A stretch of DNA of 64,000 nucleotides, taken from assembly GCF_029688845.1 (NCBI RefSeq), contig NZ_JARUKW010000013.1, positions 62,001-126,000 on the forward strand, written 5' to 3'. This document shows positions 4,059-36,001 of the stretch, piece after piece. Numbering within the stretch: the stretch's first letter is position 1; every line of letters starts with the position of its first letter. A program made the position numbers and the translations under genes. This stretch comes from Natronococcus sp. A-GB1. GTDB lineage: Archaea > Halobacteriota > Halobacteria > Halobacteriales > Natrialbaceae. The notes under the pieces were generated by a model. The model worked only from the letters and a program-made list of their open reading frames with translations. It was not told the origin of the DNA and did not search any database.

Positions 4059-5087
4059 GTGAGCGACCTCGGCAAGATCGATCGGCAGTTCTTCGAATCG
4101 CGGATCGCACCCAACCTCGGCGCCGAGCGCGACGACGTCGTCCTGGGGCCGAGTCACGGCGTCGACTTCGGCGTTATCGACGTCGGCGAGCGGGCGCTGG
4201 TGACCGCCACCGACCCCGTCTCGATCCTCCCCGCACTCGGCCTCGAGCGCGCCGCCCGATTCGCGCTCGATCTGATCCTCGCGGACGTCGCCGTCAGTGG
4301 AATCCCGCCCTCACACCTCTCGATCTGTTTTACGCTGCCGGAGACGATGAGCGACGAGGCGTTCGGAACCGTCTGGGAGACGATCCACGAGGAGTGTGCC
4401 GACCTCGGCGTCGCCGTCGTGACCGGCCACACCGCTCGCTACTCCGATCCCTCCCACCCCTGGATCGGTGCCGCGACCGCGATGGGCGTCGGCGACCACG
4501 CTGCCATCGTCCGTCCCGACGGCGCCCGCGAGGGCGATCGGCTGCTGCTGACGACCGGTCCCGCCGTCGAGTCCGTCGGGCTCCTGAGCACGCTCTTTCC
4601 CGAGGAGCTCGAGCTACCCGACGCCGTGATCGCCGACGCCCAGGAACGGCTCGAGGAGGTCCACTGCGTCCGGGACGCCCTCACCGCGGCCGCGGCGGGA
4701 CCCGTCCGAGCGATGCACGACGTCACCGAGGGCGGGCTGGCGGGCGCGCTAAACGAGATGGCCACGGGTGCGGGCGCGCGGTTCGAAATCGACCACGCCG
4801 CCGTCCCGATACGTCCCGGGGTCGCCGAAGTCTGTGCGCACCTCGAGATCGACCCCTGGGCGGCGACCAGCTGCGGCTCGCTCGTCATCGCCGTCGACCC
4901 CGCGGGCGTCGACGCGGTTCGCGAGGCACTCGAGGAGCGCGGCACCGTCGTGGCCGACATCGGGCGGGTCGAGGCGAGTTCCGACGGCGACGAAGGGAGC
5001 GTCCTCGCCGACGGCGAACGGCTCGAGCACCCGCGGGTCGATCCCTCGTGGGACGCCTACGCGAAGCTGGCTGATAGACGGACATAG
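4059..5087 (+). CDS. AIR synthase-related (PurM/HypE/ThiL-fold) protein
   Basis: A 342-aa protein of the PurM superfamily, with the N-terminal AIR-synthase domain (about 40-150, including the LILADVAVSGIPPSHL dimer/ATP region) and the C-terminal domain (about 165-320, MHDVTEGGLAGALNEMA). Members are HypE, ThiL, SelD and PurM; the MHDVTEGGL motif is closest to HypE-like stand-alone archaeal AIR-synthase proteins. Haloarchaea of this kind generally lack NiFe hydrogenases, so HypE function is unlikely and the substrate is unknown. The start is a GTG at 4059. It is the last gene before a convergent gap that holds the multi-hairpin repeat. Confidence 0.8.
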   Translation: MSDLGKIDRQFFESRIAPNLGAERDDVVLGPSHGVDFGVIDVGERALVTATDPVSILPALGLERAARFALDLILADVAVSGIPPSHLSICFTLPETMSDEAFGTVWETIHEECADLGVAVVTGHTARYSDPSHPWIGAATAMGVGDHAAIVRPDGAREGDRLLLTTGPAVESVGLLSTLFPEELELPDAVIADAQERLEEVHCVRDALTAAAAGPVRAMHDVTEGGLAGALNEMATGAGARFEIDHAAVPIRPGVAEVCAHLEIDPWAATSCGSLVIAVDPAGVDAVREALEERGTVVADIGRVEASSDGDEGSVLADGERLEHPRVDPSWDAYAKLADRRT

Positions 5088-28467: not shown

Positions 28468-28761
28468 CTACTCCGCGCAGCAGGCGTCCTTCTTCGGGGA
28501 TTCCTCGACGCCGCTGCCGTCGGCCGCAACGGGTTCCTCGAGGCGGTAGAGGCTCTGTCTGGCGTCCGCAAAGTAGATGTCCTCGTCGACGATGCCGATA
28601 TCCTCGAGGCGCTCGAGGGCGTAACGGACGGTCCGAGCCGAGAGCATCGACTCCTCGACGATCTGTTTCTGCGTGAGCGGACCGTCGTACTCGAGAACCT
28701 TGAAAACGAGCTTCGCGCTCGGTGGCAGATCCTCGAGGTCCTCGCCGTCAGTCGCGGTCAT
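28468..28761 (-). CDS. Winged-helix (MarR/ArsR-like) transcriptional regulator with Cys-Cys tail
   Basis: A 97-aa protein. The winged helix spans about 15-78: LPPSAKLVFKVLEYDGPLT, then QKQIVEESMLSARTVRYALERL and a wing with FADARQSLYRLEE. The C-terminus is KKDACCAE, a vicinal Cys pair that could sense metal or oxidant. ATG 28761 (MTATDGED) is chosen; an open extension to 28839 covers an AT-rich promoter stretch. It is typical of the small haloarchaeal HTH proteins with SARTVRYAL. The target is unknown; it may be autoregulatory with the membrane gene downstream. Confidence 0.82.
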   Translation of the reverse strand: MTATDGEDLEDLPPSAKLVFKVLEYDGPLTQKQIVEESMLSARTVRYALERLEDIGIVDEDIYFADARQSLYRLEEPVAADGSGVEESPKKDACCAE

Positions 28762-28977
28762 ATTACGTTTCGAAAGCTCCCAGTAGTATAAAAGTTGAGC
28801 CTTACAGGGACGGAGTTCGACATAATATATTGGCCACAAGGTGCGAGTAAAATGGTTCCATGGGTTCTATGCCGCAAAATCCCGACTATTTGACCGATCA
28901 GTCAGCCTGACCCGGGGACTCCTCAAAAACGGTCGTCGGGAGCGGGGATACCGGCCACGGCTCGGTCAGTGGCCGAC

Positions 28978-30141
28978 TCAGATTCGTTCCCAGGCGTCGT
29001 CGTCGTCGGGATCCGGAAGTTCGCCGACCGACTCCTCGGCGGGAATCGCGGATCCGTCGCTCGTCTCCGCGGCCGTATTGCCGAGTTCGAGCTCCGGCCA
29101 GGCGGTTCGCTCCCATTTGCCGCGTTCGGAATGGTAGTAGACGACGTTATCGTTGACGACCGCGAACAGTCCGCGCTGTCGGTCGTGGACGACGCGTGCG
29201 TTCGTATCGATAGCGACATCGACGACGTCCTCGAGGGTATCGAGCTCGACGTGGTAGTCGCCGACCCACATCGGGATCGATCCCGCCGAGATCCACTCCG
29301 CGTAGCGGCGTTCGTGGACGGACCGGCGAGCCGAATCGGTGTCAACTGGCCGTCGCGTATGAACAACTCCGGCCCCACCGAGCGCAAGTAGTCCGAGCGC
29401 CGCCAGTCCGACGACGGCCGCCGCGTTCGGTGACTCCCCGACCTCGACCTGCGTCGTCTCGCTGTGATCGGTCGACTCTGCCAGCTCCGTTTCCTCGAGC
29501 CAGTAGGCGTCCTCGGTCAGCTCGAGCGTGCTCGACAGCGTCTGCTCGTCGGCATGGGTTCCCGTATCGTAGACGGCGACGATTTCGAGCACCGTTCGGA
29601 CGGTTCCGACGTCATCGAACTCCGCTTCGACGTCAGCTCGTTCGGCCGCGAGCGAGTCGACGTCGATCGTCGTCTCCGACCGCGCGACGCCGTCCTCGAT
29701 AGTTGCGGCAGTCCGTTCCTCTCGTACCGTCTCCTCCCAGAAGACCGCGTCCTCGTGTTCGGCCTCGTGGCGGACGTGGACCTCGTGGACGACCTCGGCG
29801 TCGTCACTCGGAACCGACGTCGCCGCACTGAGGGTCAGCTCCGGTGCCTCGGGCAGCGTGTAGACCGGATTCCCCTCGAGTTCCGTACCGGCCTCCCAGG
29901 GACCGTCCTCGACGATCGTCGCACTCGTCGTTACCTCGGTTGCGACGGTTTCCTGATCGACCTCCTCGGTCGTCGTCGACGTTCCCGGCGTCGCTGCAAC
30001 CCAGCCGGCGCCGACGAGTGCGAGCACCCCCACGAGCGCGAGAGCGATCGCGAGGGATCGACCGCGATCCGCGATCACCAGATCCAGACGCGGGTTATCG
30101 ATCACGCTCCCCTCCGCCCAGCGGCCTCCCCCGGTTTCCAT
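28978..30141 (-). CDS. DUF5305-family membrane protein (signal peptidase partner)
   Basis: A 387-aa protein with helix 1 at about 28-50 (LAIALALVGVLALVGAGWVAA), a 190-residue outside domain rich in beta-strands (about 55-240), helix 2 at about 247-264, and a 120-residue cytoplasmic C-terminal part containing YAEWISAGSIPMWVGDYHV. This is the arrangement of DUF5305 proteins, which are usually found next to ER-type signal peptidases in haloarchaea. It is the last gene of a three-gene minus-strand cluster (secreted protein, signal peptidase, DUF5305). The role may be in processing or assembly of the secreted subunits; this is inferred from context. Confidence 0.78.
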   Translation of the reverse strand: METGGGRWAEGSVIDNPRLDLVIADRGRSLAIALALVGVLALVGAGWVAATPGTSTTTEEVDQETVATEVTTSATIVEDGPWEAGTELEGNPVYTLPEAPELTLSAATSVPSDDAEVVHEVHVRHEAEHEDAVFWEETVREERTAATIEDGVARSETTIDVDSLAAERADVEAEFDDVGTVRTVLEIVAVYDTGTHADEQTLSSTLELTEDAYWLEETELAESTDHSETTQVEVGESPNAAAVVGLAALGLLALGGAGVVHTRRPVDTDSARRSVHERRYAEWISAGSIPMWVGDYHVELDTLEDVVDVAIDTNARVVHDRQRGLFAVVNDNVVYYHSERGKWERTAWPELELGNTAAETSDGSAIPAEESVGELPDPDDDDAWERI

Positions 30142-30247
30142 CCCATGTTCGACCCCGAGTGTCCCTCGAGCGAACAGGTCGTTCGGGAGAACTGTTCATA
30201 CATACGGCAAGAATCCCGATCGTGATAACGGTAGCGGCCCCGAACGC

Positions 30248-31405
30248 CTACCGCCACCGACGCAGTCGACGCCGAAGCCGCGTCGAGAGCGGGACGTGAT
30301 CACCGGGGCTTCGGATCCGGAAGTCGCCCCGTCCAAACATGAGTATGACAGTCCCGACGACGATGCCAACGAGCACGAGATCGACGGCGGCGATCGCGGC
30401 GAGGGGATGGATTCCGTGCAACCAGACGAGCAGCGAAGGGGGAAGAACGGTCAGATAGCGGTACTCTCCGACGTGGCTGGTGTACTCGCCGGTCTCCTGG
30501 GGGGCCGATACCGACAGCGTCGTCGCGCTCTCCGAGCGGGGACCGAGCGTCTGCGATCCGGGCTCGGCCTCGAGTCCCCCGCCGGTTTCGTGGACGACGA
30601 CCACCGGGGCGTAGCCGGCGTTTTCGACCTCTCGAGTCAGCTCGCCCGTCTCGCCCGGAGCCAGTATCTGGGGATCGTCGGTCGGCGACTCCGTGACGGC
30701 GACCTCGTACTCGTAGGTGCCGGCGGGAGCCACCATCGCTACGGTGGCCAGCGCGACGATCACGAACACCACGAGCGCGACGGTCCCCCAGAACGCGTAG
30801 ACGTTCTCCCGGGAGGTCGACCGCACCGTCTCGCGTCGCGTAACACCCACTCGATCGAGGAGGATTCCCACGCCGAACAGCGCAACGCCGAGCCCGACCA
30901 GCGCCGAACCCATACCGTGGCTGTCGGCCGGCGAGACGCCGATAACCGACGCGACCGTCCCGTACGCCGACTCGAGGGCGCCCTGGACGCCCATTATGGC
31001 CGTTCCGAGGTAGGGGATCGTCACGACCTCGCCGCCCGGCTGCCAGGCGACGGCGACGATCTGCTCGTCGCTCACCGGTGGCTCGTCGCCGCCCTGATCG
31101 GTAAAGGGGTTGGCGTCACCGGCCGTCACGTACCCCTCAGGCGTCTCCTCGACGATTCGGTGGGTCGTCAGTTCGCCCCCGTGGAGCTCTTCGGCGTCGA
31201 AGACGACGACGTCGCCCTCGCTGGGCGAGCCGGCGACGGCGTCCGGTATGGCGACGAACCCGTCGCCGGCGTCCATTGTCGGCTCCATGCTCCCCGTCGC
31301 AACGTAGCCCAGCAGGATCGGCTGGCCGAGCACCTGCCCGACGACGAGCAGGGCGACGGCGAGAACGACGAGTCCGGCTATTATGTGGGTAACGACCGAC
31401 CGCAT
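30248..31405 (-). CDS. SipW-like (ER-type, Ser/His) signal peptidase I with long C-terminal extension
   Basis: A 385-aa protein. Helix 1 (about 8-28) is followed by the catalytic serine S39 in TGSMEPTM, a His in place of the bacterial Lys (H82 in LTTHRIVEE) and the acidic site around D97/D103 (TAGDANPFTD). This Ser-His type occurs in Sec11 and in Bacillus SipW. After about residue 150 there is an extension of some 230 residues with helices near 170-185, 205-225 and 345-365 and an outside beta-domain between them. It is flanked by a secreted TasA-like protein and DUF5305, which suggests that it processes dedicated substrates rather than the general secretome. Confidence 0.88.
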   Translation of the reverse strand: MRSVVTHIIAGLVVLAVALLVVGQVLGQPILLGYVATGSMEPTMDAGDGFVAIPDAVAGSPSEGDVVVFDAEELHGGELTTHRIVEETPEGYVTAGDANPFTDQGGDEPPVSDEQIVAVAWQPGGEVVTIPYLGTAIMGVQGALESAYGTVASVIGVSPADSHGMGSALVGLGVALFGVGILLDRVGVTRRETVRSTSRENVYAFWGTVALVVFVIVALATVAMVAPAGTYEYEVAVTESPTDDPQILAPGETGELTREVENAGYAPVVVVHETGGGLEAEPGSQTLGPRSESATTLSVSAPQETGEYTSHVGEYRYLTVLPPSLLVWLHGIHPLAAIAAVDLVLVGIVVGTVILMFGRGDFRIRSPGDHVPLSTRLRRRLRRWR

Positions 31406-31580
31406 CTCTATCCCTCATCTGTACTACTTATCATAATCTACCTACACAGTTCCGGAACGGAGAAATATCTGCGTCTACTAGCAGTAACACTCGTATTGTG
31501 GCTGCGACGGGTGTTAGCGTCGGTTCTCGATATCCTGGCCAAAGATCAAATTCCTCGTTGATCAGCGACGTTCGTATTCG

Positions 31581-32075
31581 TTACTCACCGGTCTCATCGG
31601 TCGCAGAAATGGAGACATCTTCAGGAATATCTTCTTCGTCGTTATTTCGAAGATCGAAAACAACGTCCAGAGTCACATCTGTGCTATCTGTTAGTTCTGG
31701 ATCTTCGTCTCCCTCGAAGTACATTGCATGTTCTCCATTGTTGAGAAGGCCATCTCCGGTGTCTTCATCCTCAATATCGATCGAGTATTCGACGTTTGTC
31801 TCTTCTCCGTCATATCCAATTACGAGCGCGTCGTCGAACGTCGTCGTTGCGTCCTCATTGAGGTTATCGAGATCGAATTCGATGAGGTCATCATCTCCGC
31901 TCAGTGTTTCGCTATCGATCTCTAACTCCAGAAGCGCATCGCCATCACCTTCGGTACTGACGTCCACTGATCGATCCGCCTCAACTGTACTGAACGCGCC
32001 GGTGCCGAGTGCTGCGCCGCCGCCGGCGACGATCGTTCCGAGTCCGATGAGCGTGTTTCGTCGGTTGATTTTCAT
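31581..32075 (-). CDS. Secreted TasA/camelysin-like (DUF1102-type) protein
   Basis: A 164-aa protein with a signal sequence: MKINRRNTLIGLG, a hydrophobic stretch, then GAFSTVEADRS, close to the cleavage context of SipW substrates (TasA, camelysin). The paired Arg could also be read as Tat. The mature part is an acidic beta-rich domain (VDVSTEGDGDALLELEIDS) typical of such fibre/surface proteins. An AGGAG lies about 10 bases before ATG 32075. The gene is clearly AT-richer than its neighbours, a sign of recent transfer or diversification. It is the first gene of the minus-strand cluster with the signal peptidase. In other archaea TasA homologs form bundling pili; this is an analogy only. Confidence 0.78.
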   Translation of the reverse strand: MKINRRNTLIGLGTIVAGGGAALGTGAFSTVEADRSVDVSTEGDGDALLELEIDSETLSGDDDLIEFDLDNLNEDATTTFDDALVIGYDGEETNVEYSIDIEDEDTGDGLLNNGEHAMYFEGDEDPELTDSTDVTLDVVFDLRNNDEEDIPEDVSISATDETGE

Positions 32076-32338
32076 TATGAGTGTCTCCTATTGCCGCCGG
32101 CGACCGTGATCTCGAGCGAGGTCGCGGACGGTTCCTGTCTTGAACTATACGGCCCACGCACTTTGTATTTGTCATCCTGAAAGTCAATTTAGGAAGTTAC
32201 TATTTGTTCAAGCCCTCCCAGAACCGGATCCTAACGGCCGTCGTACCGTTTCAACTCCGGAACGAACGGTGAAACGAACGCGTTGGCCAGTAGGCTTATC
32301 TATCGGTGGTCGGTACTGTGCACTGCACTGACGTTCTG
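32076..32338. promoter_or_regulatory. Divergent promoter region of the TasA/SipW-like locus
   Basis: The gap separates the minus-strand and plus-strand arms of the locus. An AT-rich block at about 32155-32215 suits the minus-strand promoter, and TTATCTATC near 32297-32305 suits the plus-strand DUF7344 gene (about 34-42 bases before its ATG). An inverted repeat CGTTTCA (32247-32253) / TGAAACG (32270-32276), overlapped by ACCGTT/AACGGT, is a possible operator. Confidence 0.45.
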
Positions 32339-32905
32339 ATGGCGACGAACACGACCGCCGATGAGACGCAGACGGATCTCGACGAGCCGACGCCAAATCG
32401 AGGCGAGATCTTCGGGCTGCTTTCGAACCAGCGGCGGCGGTACGCGATCCACTACTGCAAGCGCGAGGACGGACCGGTCGAGCTCGGCGACCTCGCCGAA
32501 CACGTCGCCGCCTGGGAACTCGAGAAGGAGGTTTCGGAGCTGACTGCCGCGGAACGAAAGCGCGTCTACACCTCCCTCCAGCAGAGCCACCTGCCAACCC
32601 TCGAGCGGGCCGGAATGATCGTTTTCGACGACCGAACGATCGAACTCACCGAGGAGGCGGCCGAACTCGACGTCTACCTCGATATCGTTCCCAGCGACAG
32701 CGTCCCGTGGGGAGTCTACTACCTCGGTCTCTCCGTACTCGCGTCGATCGTAATGGCTGGGCTGTGGCTCGAGTTCGTTCCGACCGGGACGATTCCGGCA
32801 CTCGGCTGGACGACACTCGTAGTCGGGCTGTTCGCGGCGTCGTCGATCGTCCACGTCGTTCAGAATCGACGGATGCGGCTGGGAGAGGTGGAACGACCAC
32901 CATAG
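32339..32905 (+). CDS. DUF7344-type winged-helix protein with two C-terminal membrane helices
   Basis: A 188-aa protein. Residues about 20-105 are a haloarchaeal winged helix (GEIFGLLSNQRRRYAIHYC, YTSLQQSHLPTLERAGMIVF), followed by two helices (about 122-143 and 148-168) that anchor it in the membrane. The gene is located beside secreted or pilus-like proteins in other haloarchaea. ATG 32339 is used; an in-frame ATG at 32306 lies at the putative TATA region. The stop is one base before the next ATG (32907), so the two are an operon. It is the probable regulator of the locus. Confidence 0.8.
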   Translation: MATNTTADETQTDLDEPTPNRGEIFGLLSNQRRRYAIHYCKREDGPVELGDLAEHVAAWELEKEVSELTAAERKRVYTSLQQSHLPTLERAGMIVFDDRTIELTEEAAELDVYLDIVPSDSVPWGVYYLGLSVLASIVMAGLWLEFVPTGTIPALGWTTLVVGLFAASSIVHVVQNRRMRLGEVERPP

Positions 32906-32906
32906 T

Positions 32907-33782
32907 ATGCGAACGACAAAATCCCTGGCGATACTTTGTGTCGTTTTCGGCGTTGTCTTGCTCGCGGGCCCGACCTTCGGATTCGTTTCGATTTCCGCGG
33001 ACCGTGGCGTTTCGGTCGGGACTGCCGACGACGAGGAGGCGTACCTCGGCATCGAGTCGGTCGACACCGTTGTCAACGATCAGAACGATGCCGAAACGGT
33101 GCTCGTGATGACGAACAACGCCGACGAGGAGCTGTCGATCGACGCCGACGTGACGATTCGAGGGCCCGGACTCGAGGAGGCGAGCGGCTTCGACGACACG
33201 CTTTCGCCGGGCGAGGAGACGACCTACGCGGTGACCTGCGAGCCCGGAGAGGGTGTCGGAGAGACGGACCTCGAGGTCGCGGTCGACTCCGCTAGCGGGA
33301 CCGGGATCTCGATCGAAGAGCTAGAGCGATCGTTTGCGATCGAGCGTGACTGTTCCAAAGGATCCGATCCGGGATCGCCAGGTGAAACGGAGCCGGGAGC
33401 CGGTTTCGACTCGATCTTCGTCGACGACGTCTCTGGGTCCGTGAGTCCGGGAGAGGAACGCCAGCAGGTCGGTTTCACACTCGCGGGGAACCGACGACCC
33501 CACAAGGAGATCGAAATCGACCTGAATGATCCGCACGGCGACGGCGTCGACTACACCGAGACGTTCGAGGAGCAGAACCTCGAGGTCGCCGAGGGCAACG
33601 GCGACGTCCACGAAAGCGATGGGGCGATCGTCTACGAAGTCGCCCCGCAGGACGGTCACGATGATGAGATCGTTATCGAGGTCGGCAGCTACGCGACGGA
33701 CGACGACGGCGGACCCTACGAGGTTTCGTTCACTAGGACCGAGACGGAGGAGGTCGGAACGGCGCAGTTCGAGGTCGAGTAA
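32907..33782 (+). CDS. Second secreted TasA-like/camelysin-like surface protein
   Basis: A 291-aa protein with an N-terminal signal/anchor helix (about 5-22), then GFVSISADRGVSVGTADDEEAYLGIE, the haloarchaeal form of the ADRxVxVxxADD motif after the signal sequence (compare TVEADRSVDVS in the gene at 31581). There is a central beta-domain (about 40-145), an acidic/Gly-Pro linker (about 150-165) and a second beta-domain (about 168-291). Only two Cys are seen. It shares the operon with the DUF7344 protein, one base apart. It is a likely surface-layer or fibre subunit and a candidate substrate of the signal peptidase across the divergent promoter. Confidence 0.75.
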   Translation: MRTTKSLAILCVVFGVVLLAGPTFGFVSISADRGVSVGTADDEEAYLGIESVDTVVNDQNDAETVLVMTNNADEELSIDADVTIRGPGLEEASGFDDTLSPGEETTYAVTCEPGEGVGETDLEVAVDSASGTGISIEELERSFAIERDCSKGSDPGSPGETEPGAGFDSIFVDDVSGSVSPGEERQQVGFTLAGNRRPHKEIEIDLNDPHGDGVDYTETFEEQNLEVAEGNGDVHESDGAIVYEVAPQDGHDDEIVIEVGSYATDDDGGPYEVSFTRTETEEVGTAQFEVE

Positions 33783-33852
33783 CGAGGCTCGCGAGCGTTC
33801 GGCCGCTCCACAATGCGAACCCCTTTTCACCACCGACGACAGAACTCGAGCC

Positions 33853-34188
33853 ATGTCGACCGAATCGATTAGCGACCGACGCGAGCATATCCGCTCGATC
33901 AGCGTGACGGCGCTGTCAGCGCTGCTCGGCGTCGGTGCGGCGTTCGCCTCGCTGGCGATGGCGGGTGACGTGTCGTCCGTCGAGGCGGCCAGCGCTGCCG
34001 CAACCGACACGCGGGGACTGTTGCTCGTTCTGGGGGCGATCCTCGTCCAGTTCGTCCTCTACGACTTCACGGATATCTACGGCGACGACGAGTTCGGCGT
34101 GAAACACTACCTGTTCATCACGTTCATGACGTTCTCGTTCTGGTTCGTCGTCCTCGGAATCCTCCTCACGACGGAGGCAATGGGTTAA
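33853..34188 (+). CDS. EMC6-like small membrane protein
   Basis: A 111-aa protein with three predicted helices (about 16-38, 53-69 and 83-106) and the acidic FTDIYGDDEFG loop before the third. Its position one base ahead of the ABCE1 gene is the usual haloarchaeal arrangement; such proteins have been annotated as EMC6-like, that is, related to a subunit of the ER membrane insertase. The stop at 34186-34188 and the next ATG at 34190 imply coupled translation. The family assignment comes from memory of the context and topology, not from a visible motif. Confidence 0.65.
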   Translation: MSTESISDRREHIRSISVTALSALLGVGAAFASLAMAGDVSSVEAASAAATDTRGLLLVLGAILVQFVLYDFTDIYGDDEFGVKHYLFITFMTFSFWFVVLGILLTTEAMG

Positions 34189-34189
34189 G

Positions 34190-36001
34190 ATGGCCGACGA
34201 CAGCATCGCCGTCGTAGACTTAGATCGGTGCCAGCCCGACCGGTGTAGCTACGAGTGCAAAAACTACTGTCCGCCCAACCGCACGGGAAAGGAGTGTATC
34301 ACGCTCCGGGGCGAGGAGGCCGATCAGGGCCAGCCCGACCAGATACACATCTCCGAGGAGATCTGTCTGGGCGAGACCTGTGGCATCTGCGTCGAGAAGT
34401 GTCCGTTCGACGCCATCGAGATCATCAACCTGCCCCAGGAGCTCCAGGACGACCCCGTTCACCGCTACGGCGAGAACGCCTTCTCGCTGTACGGCCTCCC
34501 GGCGCCTCAGGAGGGGAAGGTCACGGGGATTCTGGGGCCGAACGGGATCGGGAAGACCACCGCCGTTCGCATCCTCGAGGGCGAACTCCAGCCCAACCTC
34601 GGCCGCGACGAGGCCGTCGGCTGGGACGACGTCCTCGAGGCCTACCGCGGGACCGAACTGCAGGACTACATCGCCGACGTCCGCGACGGCGAGGTTACCG
34701 TCGCCCGCAAACCCCAGTACGTCGATCAGATCCCGGAGAGCTTCGACGGCAACACCCGCGAGCTGCTCGAGCGAACCGACGAACGTGGGGCACTCGACTC
34801 GCTAGTCGAACGCCTCGAGATCGGTCCCGTCATGGACCAGGCGATCGAGGACCTCTCGGGCGGGGAGCTCCAGCGGGTCGCGCTGGCAGCGACGCTGGCG
34901 CGGGATACGGACTTTTACTTCCTCGACGAGGTGACGCCCTATCTCGACATCGGCCAGCGCGTTACCGCGGCGCGGCTGATCCGCGAACTCGCCGAGGAGG
35001 AGAACCGATCGATGCTGGTCGTCGAGCACGACCTCGCGATCCTGGACCTGCTCGCCGACACCCTCCACGTCGCCTACGGTGAGCCCGGCGCCTACGGTGT
35101 CATCACTTCGCCGAAATCGGTCAGAAACGGGATCAACGAGTACCTCTCGGGGTATCTCGACAACGAGAACATGCGGATCCGACAGGACCGCATCGAGTTC
35201 GAGGAACACGCCCCCCGGATCGCGTCTCACGGCGACGTGCTGGTCGACTACCCCGACCTCACCAAGAGCTACGGCGACGGCGAGTTCAGCCTCGAGATCG
35301 AGGGCGGAGAGATCCACCGCAACGAGGTGCTCGGGATCGTCGGTCCCAACGGGATCGGGAAGTCGACGTTCGCGAAGCTGTTGACGGGCAACCTCGAGCC
35401 GACCGCGGGCGACGCCGACCTCGATCTGGATATTTCGTACAAGCCGCAGTACGTCACCATCGACCAGCACATGCGGGTCGACGCCTTCCTCTCCTCCATT
35501 ACGGACCAGTTCGGCTCCTCGTACTGGAACACCGAGATCGCTCAGCCGCTGCAGTTAGAGCGGATCATGGAACAGAACCTCTCGGATCTCTCCGGCGGTG
35601 AGCGCCAGCGGGTCGCCATCGCGGCCTGCCTGTCGGAGTCGGCGGATCTCTACCTGCTCGACGAACCCTCGGCCCACCTCGACGTCGAACAGCGGGTCCA
35701 GGCCACCAGCGCCATCCGGCGCTACGCCGAACAGCAGGACGCCACCGTGATGGTCATCGATCACGACATCTACACGATCGACCTGCTGGCCGACCGCTTG
35801 ATGGTCTTCGAGGGCGAGCCCGCAGTCGAGGGCCACGCCAGCGAGCCCCAGCCGATGCGGGAGGGGATGAACGAGTTCCTCTCGAACCTCGAGATCACGT
35901 TCCGGCGGGACGAACGGACCTCGCGTCCGCGGATCAACAAGCCGGAGTCACAGCTCGATCGCGAGCAAAAGCGGGAAGGCGAGTACTACTACTCGCCGTA
36001 A
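34190..36001 (+). CDS. rli1: ABCE1/Rli1 ribosome-recycling ATPase
   Basis: A 603-aa soluble twin-ATPase. The N-terminus carries the two [4Fe-4S] sites (CQPDRC...CKNYCP and CGICVEKCPF). The two nucleotide-binding domains have Walker A lysines K122 and K391 (GPNGIGKTT and GPNGIGKST), signature motifs LSGGELQRV and LSGGERQRV, and Walker B FLDEVTPYLD and LLDEPSAHLD. ABCE1 splits the ribosome after termination and is essential in archaea. The length is standard. It is cotranscribed with the EMC6-like gene. Confidence 0.97.
   Translation: MADDSIAVVDLDRCQPDRCSYECKNYCPPNRTGKECITLRGEEADQGQPDQIHISEEICLGETCGICVEKCPFDAIEIINLPQELQDDPVHRYGENAFSLYGLPAPQEGKVTGILGPNGIGKTTAVRILEGELQPNLGRDEAVGWDDVLEAYRGTELQDYIADVRDGEVTVARKPQYVDQIPESFDGNTRELLERTDERGALDSLVERLEIGPVMDQAIEDLSGGELQRVALAATLARDTDFYFLDEVTPYLDIGQRVTAARLIRELAEEENRSMLVVEHDLAILDLLADTLHVAYGEPGAYGVITSPKSVRNGINEYLSGYLDNENMRIRQDRIEFEEHAPRIASHGDVLVDYPDLTKSYGDGEFSLEIEGGEIHRNEVLGIVGPNGIGKSTFAKLLTGNLEPTAGDADLDLDISYKPQYVTIDQHMRVDAFLSSITDQFGSSYWNTEIAQPLQLERIMEQNLSDLSGGERQRVAIAACLSESADLYLLDEPSAHLDVEQRVQATSAIRRYAEQQDATVMVIDHDIYTIDLLADRLMVFEGEPAVEGHASEPQPMREGMNEFLSNLEITFRRDERTSRPRINKPESQLDREQKREGEYYYSP

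Follow-up and report, generated by a model that had tools for sequence, protein, structure and literature searches.

What kind of surface structure is encoded by the five genes at positions 28978-33782 of the window, the whole 64,000-nucleotide stretch of Natronococcus DNA analysed here? The preliminary description took them for a SipW/TasA-like locus of a secreted fibre. On our analysis, they very probably form a locus for a Tafi-type pilus. This kind is already known from a solved Tafi pilus and from the NCBIfam fimbrial names TafA, TafC, TafE and TafF, and the locus adds a member to it. The assignment is built on observed gene content, homology, synteny, motif conservation and the identity of an orthologue with the solved filament subunit, while the mechanism proposed below would mostly be carried over from solved relatives. 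The interesting part of the locus is DUF5305 together with the long extension of the peptidase.

Layout of the two arms

All five open reading frames were confirmed, and their coordinates, families and shared motif agree with the preliminary description. The reverse strand carries the genes of a DUF5305 protein (28978..30141), a signal peptidase (30248..31405) and the pilin (31581..32075), and the forward strand those of a DUF7344 winged-helix protein (32306..32905) and a TafC-like secreted protein (32907..33782). The arms do diverge as described, from an intergenic region of 230 bases (32076..32305) that is well conserved in the alignment of four Natronococcus-type loci; a single promoter region driving both arms is plausible. 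Within it, the inverted repeat CGTTTCA-N16-TGAAACG (32247..32276) is a possible operator. The pattern was picked after viewing the alignment and has one match in the window and 0 in 100 shuffles.

The DUF7344 protein (Pfam PF24035, 2.7e-28) consists of a winged helix with two C-terminal hydrophobic segments, in keeping with the membrane-anchored protein described earlier, and we accept its suggested role of local regulator as likely. Outside the five genes, a small winged-helix protein is encoded beside DUF5305 (28468-28839). It is 95-100% conserved among Natronococcus-type loci, its gene stays adjacent to the pilus locus in many Natrialbaceae, and a protein resembling it was found near the fused peptidase of locus L129 (see below). 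In many Natrialbaceae, an EMC6-like and an ABCE1-like gene (33844-36001 in the window) are likewise constantly found next to the pilus locus.

The pilin, its partner and the solved filaments

By position, the product of the gene at 31581, 164 residues long, is orthologous to the Tafi pilin of Natrinema, which was solved as PDB 9p0a ("Structure of Natrinema sp. J7-2 Tafi pilus"). A phmmer search of solved chains returned one match, 9p0a (4.4e-16, residues 1-53), which is confined to the signal and the early mature part. A Natrinema gari protein (L070) matches the 9p0a pilin without a difference over 215 residues, and it occupies the equivalent slot, upstream of a TafF-like gene, the peptidase and DUF5305. 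Being homologous to 9p0a and placed upstream of an S26 peptidase and DUF5305, the window gene has the position and the homology expected of a Tafi pilin gene. It shares with the Natrinema pilus the slot, the signal, the donor-strand motif and the neighbours (peptidase, DUF5305, DUF7344), whereas its product is shorter (164 residues against 215) with a diverged body, the window lacks a TafF-like gene, and the TafC-like protein is just distantly similar.

In the 31581 product the signal is followed by the donor-strand motif AFSTVEADRSV. The pattern [AG]F..[VI].A.R follows the signal in 36/36 orthologous pilins, in whose alignment G26, A27, F28, V31, A33 and R35 are invariant, and no part of the protein is better conserved than signal and motif together. 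The 9p0a structure has 188 modelled residues ending at 215, so that F28 is the first modelled residue if the chain is unbroken; from this numbering, cleavage would fall near Ala27-Phe28, with Phe at P2'. TasA, the substrate of a dedicated ER-type peptidase, also has Phe at P2' (PMC10269814). Its donor strand comprises residues 28-38, of which F29 and I32, among others, touch the next subunits (PMC9674648). The positions of the pilin motif and of the TasA donor strand coincide, which suggests a likeness to the TasA mechanism.

The structure model of the 31581 product has a mean pLDDT of 76, near 90 in most of the core and below 50 at residues 7-21 and 30-34. When compared to solved structures with VIA, it gave 9p0a as the top row (Z 7.7, 111 residues, 2.9 A), with a Foldseek E-value of 0.25. 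Other Ig-like domains score close behind, at Z 7.0 and below; the third row is AbpA of the Pyrobaculum calidifontis bundling pili (7ueg, Z 6.5), which shares the Ig-like, TasA-related fold, whereas no sequence match between AbpA and the window was found. Outside the signal and donor strand, little similarity to 9p0a is left (18% by structural alignment). With weak Foldseek E-values and other Ig-like domains so near in score, the fold comparison supports the Tafi identity without deciding it.

Two further points count against the Tafi reading. One is the missing TafF-like gene, which leaves the set incomplete relative to the relatives: only 175 bases separate pilin and peptidase in the window, and a search of the whole host genome gave weak generic matches only. 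The gene is likewise absent in three close relatives (L042-L044) and present in N. pandeyae (L073), and where relatives have it, its relation to TafF is one of distant homology (hhalign probability 99.2%, 147 columns). The other is that the best NCBIfam model for the 31581 product is TafE (8.1e-29; 100.6 of 155 bits, under the cut-off), labelled an adapter by NCBIfam, while the TafA cut-off is missed (52.3 of 190 bits). The product could then be a minor adapter with the main pilin encoded elsewhere; the reference-type locus L041 has one gene for TafA and another for TafE. We consider this unlikely. The 9p0a pilin itself scores higher with TafE than with TafA (77.3 against 52.8 bits), yet it forms the solved filament, and the other well-scoring candidates of the host genome sit at a second locus on contig C45. 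That second locus consists of a peptidase, DUF5305 and two pilin-like genes. Compared to the Taf fimbriae of L041, the window locus has the same components (DUF7344, DUF5305, S26 peptidase, a TafA/TafE-like pilin and a TafC-like protein), but all its scores lie under the equivalog cut-offs, its gene order is different and the TafF-like gene is absent.

The TafC-like protein (291 residues) matches the TafC model at 1.1e-11, with 44.5 of 410 bits and thus below the curated cut-off. It consists of the donor-strand motif shared with the pilin, an Ig-like domain in which C111 and C149 are invariant in the family alignment, and a C-terminal adhesin-like domain. The ADR-x-V-x-V motif reported for both secreted proteins is real: the pilin and TafC-like families align with hhalign at E 1e-10 over 57 columns, and this homology is restricted to the signal, the motif and the first strand. 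A relaxed form of the motif occurs in 30/31 TafC-like proteins. In the structure model the Ig-like domain is confident, and residues 22-36 ahead of it are of low confidence. TapA also has a complete Ig domain behind an unstructured, donating N-terminus (PMC10151520). The C-terminal domain resembles MSCRAMM adhesin domains in a fold search, with a borderline best Z of 8.8. This part varies among relatives: 11/31 TafC-like proteins have a bactofilin-like repeat here, and the reference-type TafC has a laminin-G domain.

The peptidase, DUF5305 and their cargo

The peptidase (385 residues) scores 51.9 bits with TIGR02228, barely above the cut-off of 51.85. Ser39 and His82 are invariant in the alignment of 20 homologues, and this Ser-His catalytic pair places it in S26B; its profile matches human SEC11A at 9e-4. 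Beyond about residue 150 begins a long membrane and extracellular extension, whose hydrophobic segments span 165-183, 208-226 and 338-356. The ER-type enzyme with Ser39-His82 chemistry and a long extension was therefore described correctly. An Ig_VWA7 match in 1/20 homologues (E 0.009) and one in a distant peptidase (E 1.2e-4, under the cut-off) at most hint weakly that the extension is Ig-like. A further peptidase of the host genome, housekeeping-type by sequence, lies on contig C12.

Could this be a true SipW/TasA (camelysin) locus for a matrix fibre? The Ser-His peptidase and a signal followed by an A-F start as in TasA speak for it, as does an equivalent peptidase-DUF5305 pair beside SipW-type cargo in distant archaea. 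Nevertheless, the peptidase misses the SipW cut-off (39.5 of 190 bits), the window proteins show no match to the SipW-type signal (TIGR04088) at E up to 1, and the host genome has a separate cluster nearer to these models, whose peptidase (L022:9736-10644) matches SipW at 3e-28, under the cut-off. We regard this reading as improbable. The window locus resembles Bacillus tapA-sipW-tasA in its dedicated ER-type peptidase, the Phe right after the probable cleavage site, the N-terminal donor-strand motif and a partner with an Ig-like domain and matching N-terminus; it differs in that SipW, TasA and the SipW-type signal are not matched at family level, and in adding DUF5305 and DUF7344. The original label thus holds for the mechanism, with a dedicated Ser-His peptidase, fibre subunits and a relation to TasA and AbpA, and fails for the family; among solved systems, the Tafi pilus comes closest. 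A match to DUF1102 (Pfam PF06510) was found in neither of the two secreted window proteins. The SipW-like cluster adjoins the second host-genome locus on C45 and comprises a peptidase and three proteins with SipW-type signals, one slightly under the cut-off (L022:9736-13573, L133:666-2257), with a winged-helix protein of DUF7344-like appearance nearby.

The DUF5305 protein (387 residues; Pfam PF17231, 1.1e-44) has hydrophobic segments at 21-39 and 242-260, consistent with the two-helix protein described before. Its best conserved part in the alignment is the C-terminal 'WIS...LDTLEDVVDVAID' region, and the search for a solved relative by sequence gave a best value of 0.04, i.e., none. Its distribution was surveyed in 97 genomes of the order, with three weak partial matches excluded, and it was found at 84 places in 59 of the genomes. 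An S26 match lies within 8 kb of at least 79 of these places, and within 12 kb there is a TafE match at no fewer than 67 and a TafC match at no fewer than 55; 4/84 are without S26, TafE or TafC among the matches listed. The presence of DUF5305 and that of TafE are associated across genomes (57, 4, 4, 32; Fisher p 6e-17, evidence that is inflated by the kinship of the genomes). A second count used 64 haloarchaeal loci found via the peptidase, with full flanks: the pilin is present in 63, DUF5305 in 61, DUF7344 in 59, a TafC-like gene in 49 and a TafF-like gene in 48, and DUF5305 is immediately downstream of the peptidase in 54. The genes do travel together, as the preliminary description had expected, with DUF5305 as a constant partner; their order is strongly conserved and their association is beyond chance.

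DUF5305 was also found beyond the order. In 14 of 15 hand-picked distant loci, an S26 match lies no farther than about 5 kb away. The fifteenth, L154, keeps its DUF5305 gene intact, but the S26-like frame next to it (4291-4581) is truncated and may be a peptidase gene that was disrupted. From seven of the distant loci, eight cargo proteins are all above the cut-off of the SipW-type signal. Four others (L160, L162, L164 and L165) have pilin-like cargo with a DUF7344-like gene adjacent, and 6/7 pilin-slot cargo proteins of this type that were tested match DUF1102 (1e-35 to 1e-41). Since the cargo is SipW-type at some distant loci and pilin-like at others, the peptidase-DUF5305 pair goes with both kinds, which suggests that one pair serves both SipW/TasA-type and Tafi-type fibres. 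Such differing cargo would also be expected if peptidase and DUF5305 were a general surface-protein module and both secreted proteins non-polymerising envelope proteins. This is very improbable, for the pilin orthologue of Natrinema builds a filament, and conservation within the secreted protein is highest in the signal and donor-strand motif.

For the Tafi-type pilus, we propose the following assembly. The pilin precursor would be exported and its signal cut near Ala27-Phe28 by the S26B peptidase of the locus. The new N-terminus (AFSTVEADRSV...) may then be donated to the neighbour as the strand missing from its Ig-like fold, as in TasA, so that a filament could form. The TafC-like protein, with a donor strand and a complete Ig-like domain, would start or cap the chain (cf. 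TapA) and would bear a variable adhesive domain. DUF5305 would act with the peptidase at the membrane, and DUF7344 would control the locus. More tentatively, DUF5305 may be a dedicated partner of archaeal SipW-type peptidases, the pair forming a membrane platform that frees the donor strand and hands the subunit to the fibre, with the extension as chaperone; we hold this to be possible rather than probable. A DUF5305-like C-terminus is fused in frame to the peptidase in L129, a single case among the peptidase loci examined. Three DUF families, DUF5305, DUF7344 and DUF1102, are thereby linked to archaeal fibre loci, each with a testable role.

Exchange of the pilin gene

The AT-rich composition of the 31581 gene had been taken as a hint of recent exchange. 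This explanation was rejected: the pilin is lower in GC than the peptidase in 35/35 loci compared, and low GC, being common to all these orthologues, is a standing feature and no sign of recent exchange. Exchange of the pilin does occur at this locus among relatives. For example, two Natrinema hispanicum records (L060, L068) are 95% identical in the peptidase and 96% in DUF5305, and 42% in the mature pilin. In the topology test of the pilin tree, in which two groupings were tried, a clade of five Natronococcus-type rows was rejected (p-AU 0.0096) and a clade of four was not (p 0.216), while the peptidase tree supports both groupings at 100/100; the window pilin clusters with two close relatives. 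A pilin swapped between close relatives with the machinery fixed is what may be expected of a surface structure under pressure. With near-identical machinery and differing pilins, L060 and L068 are well suited as a natural test of such exchange.
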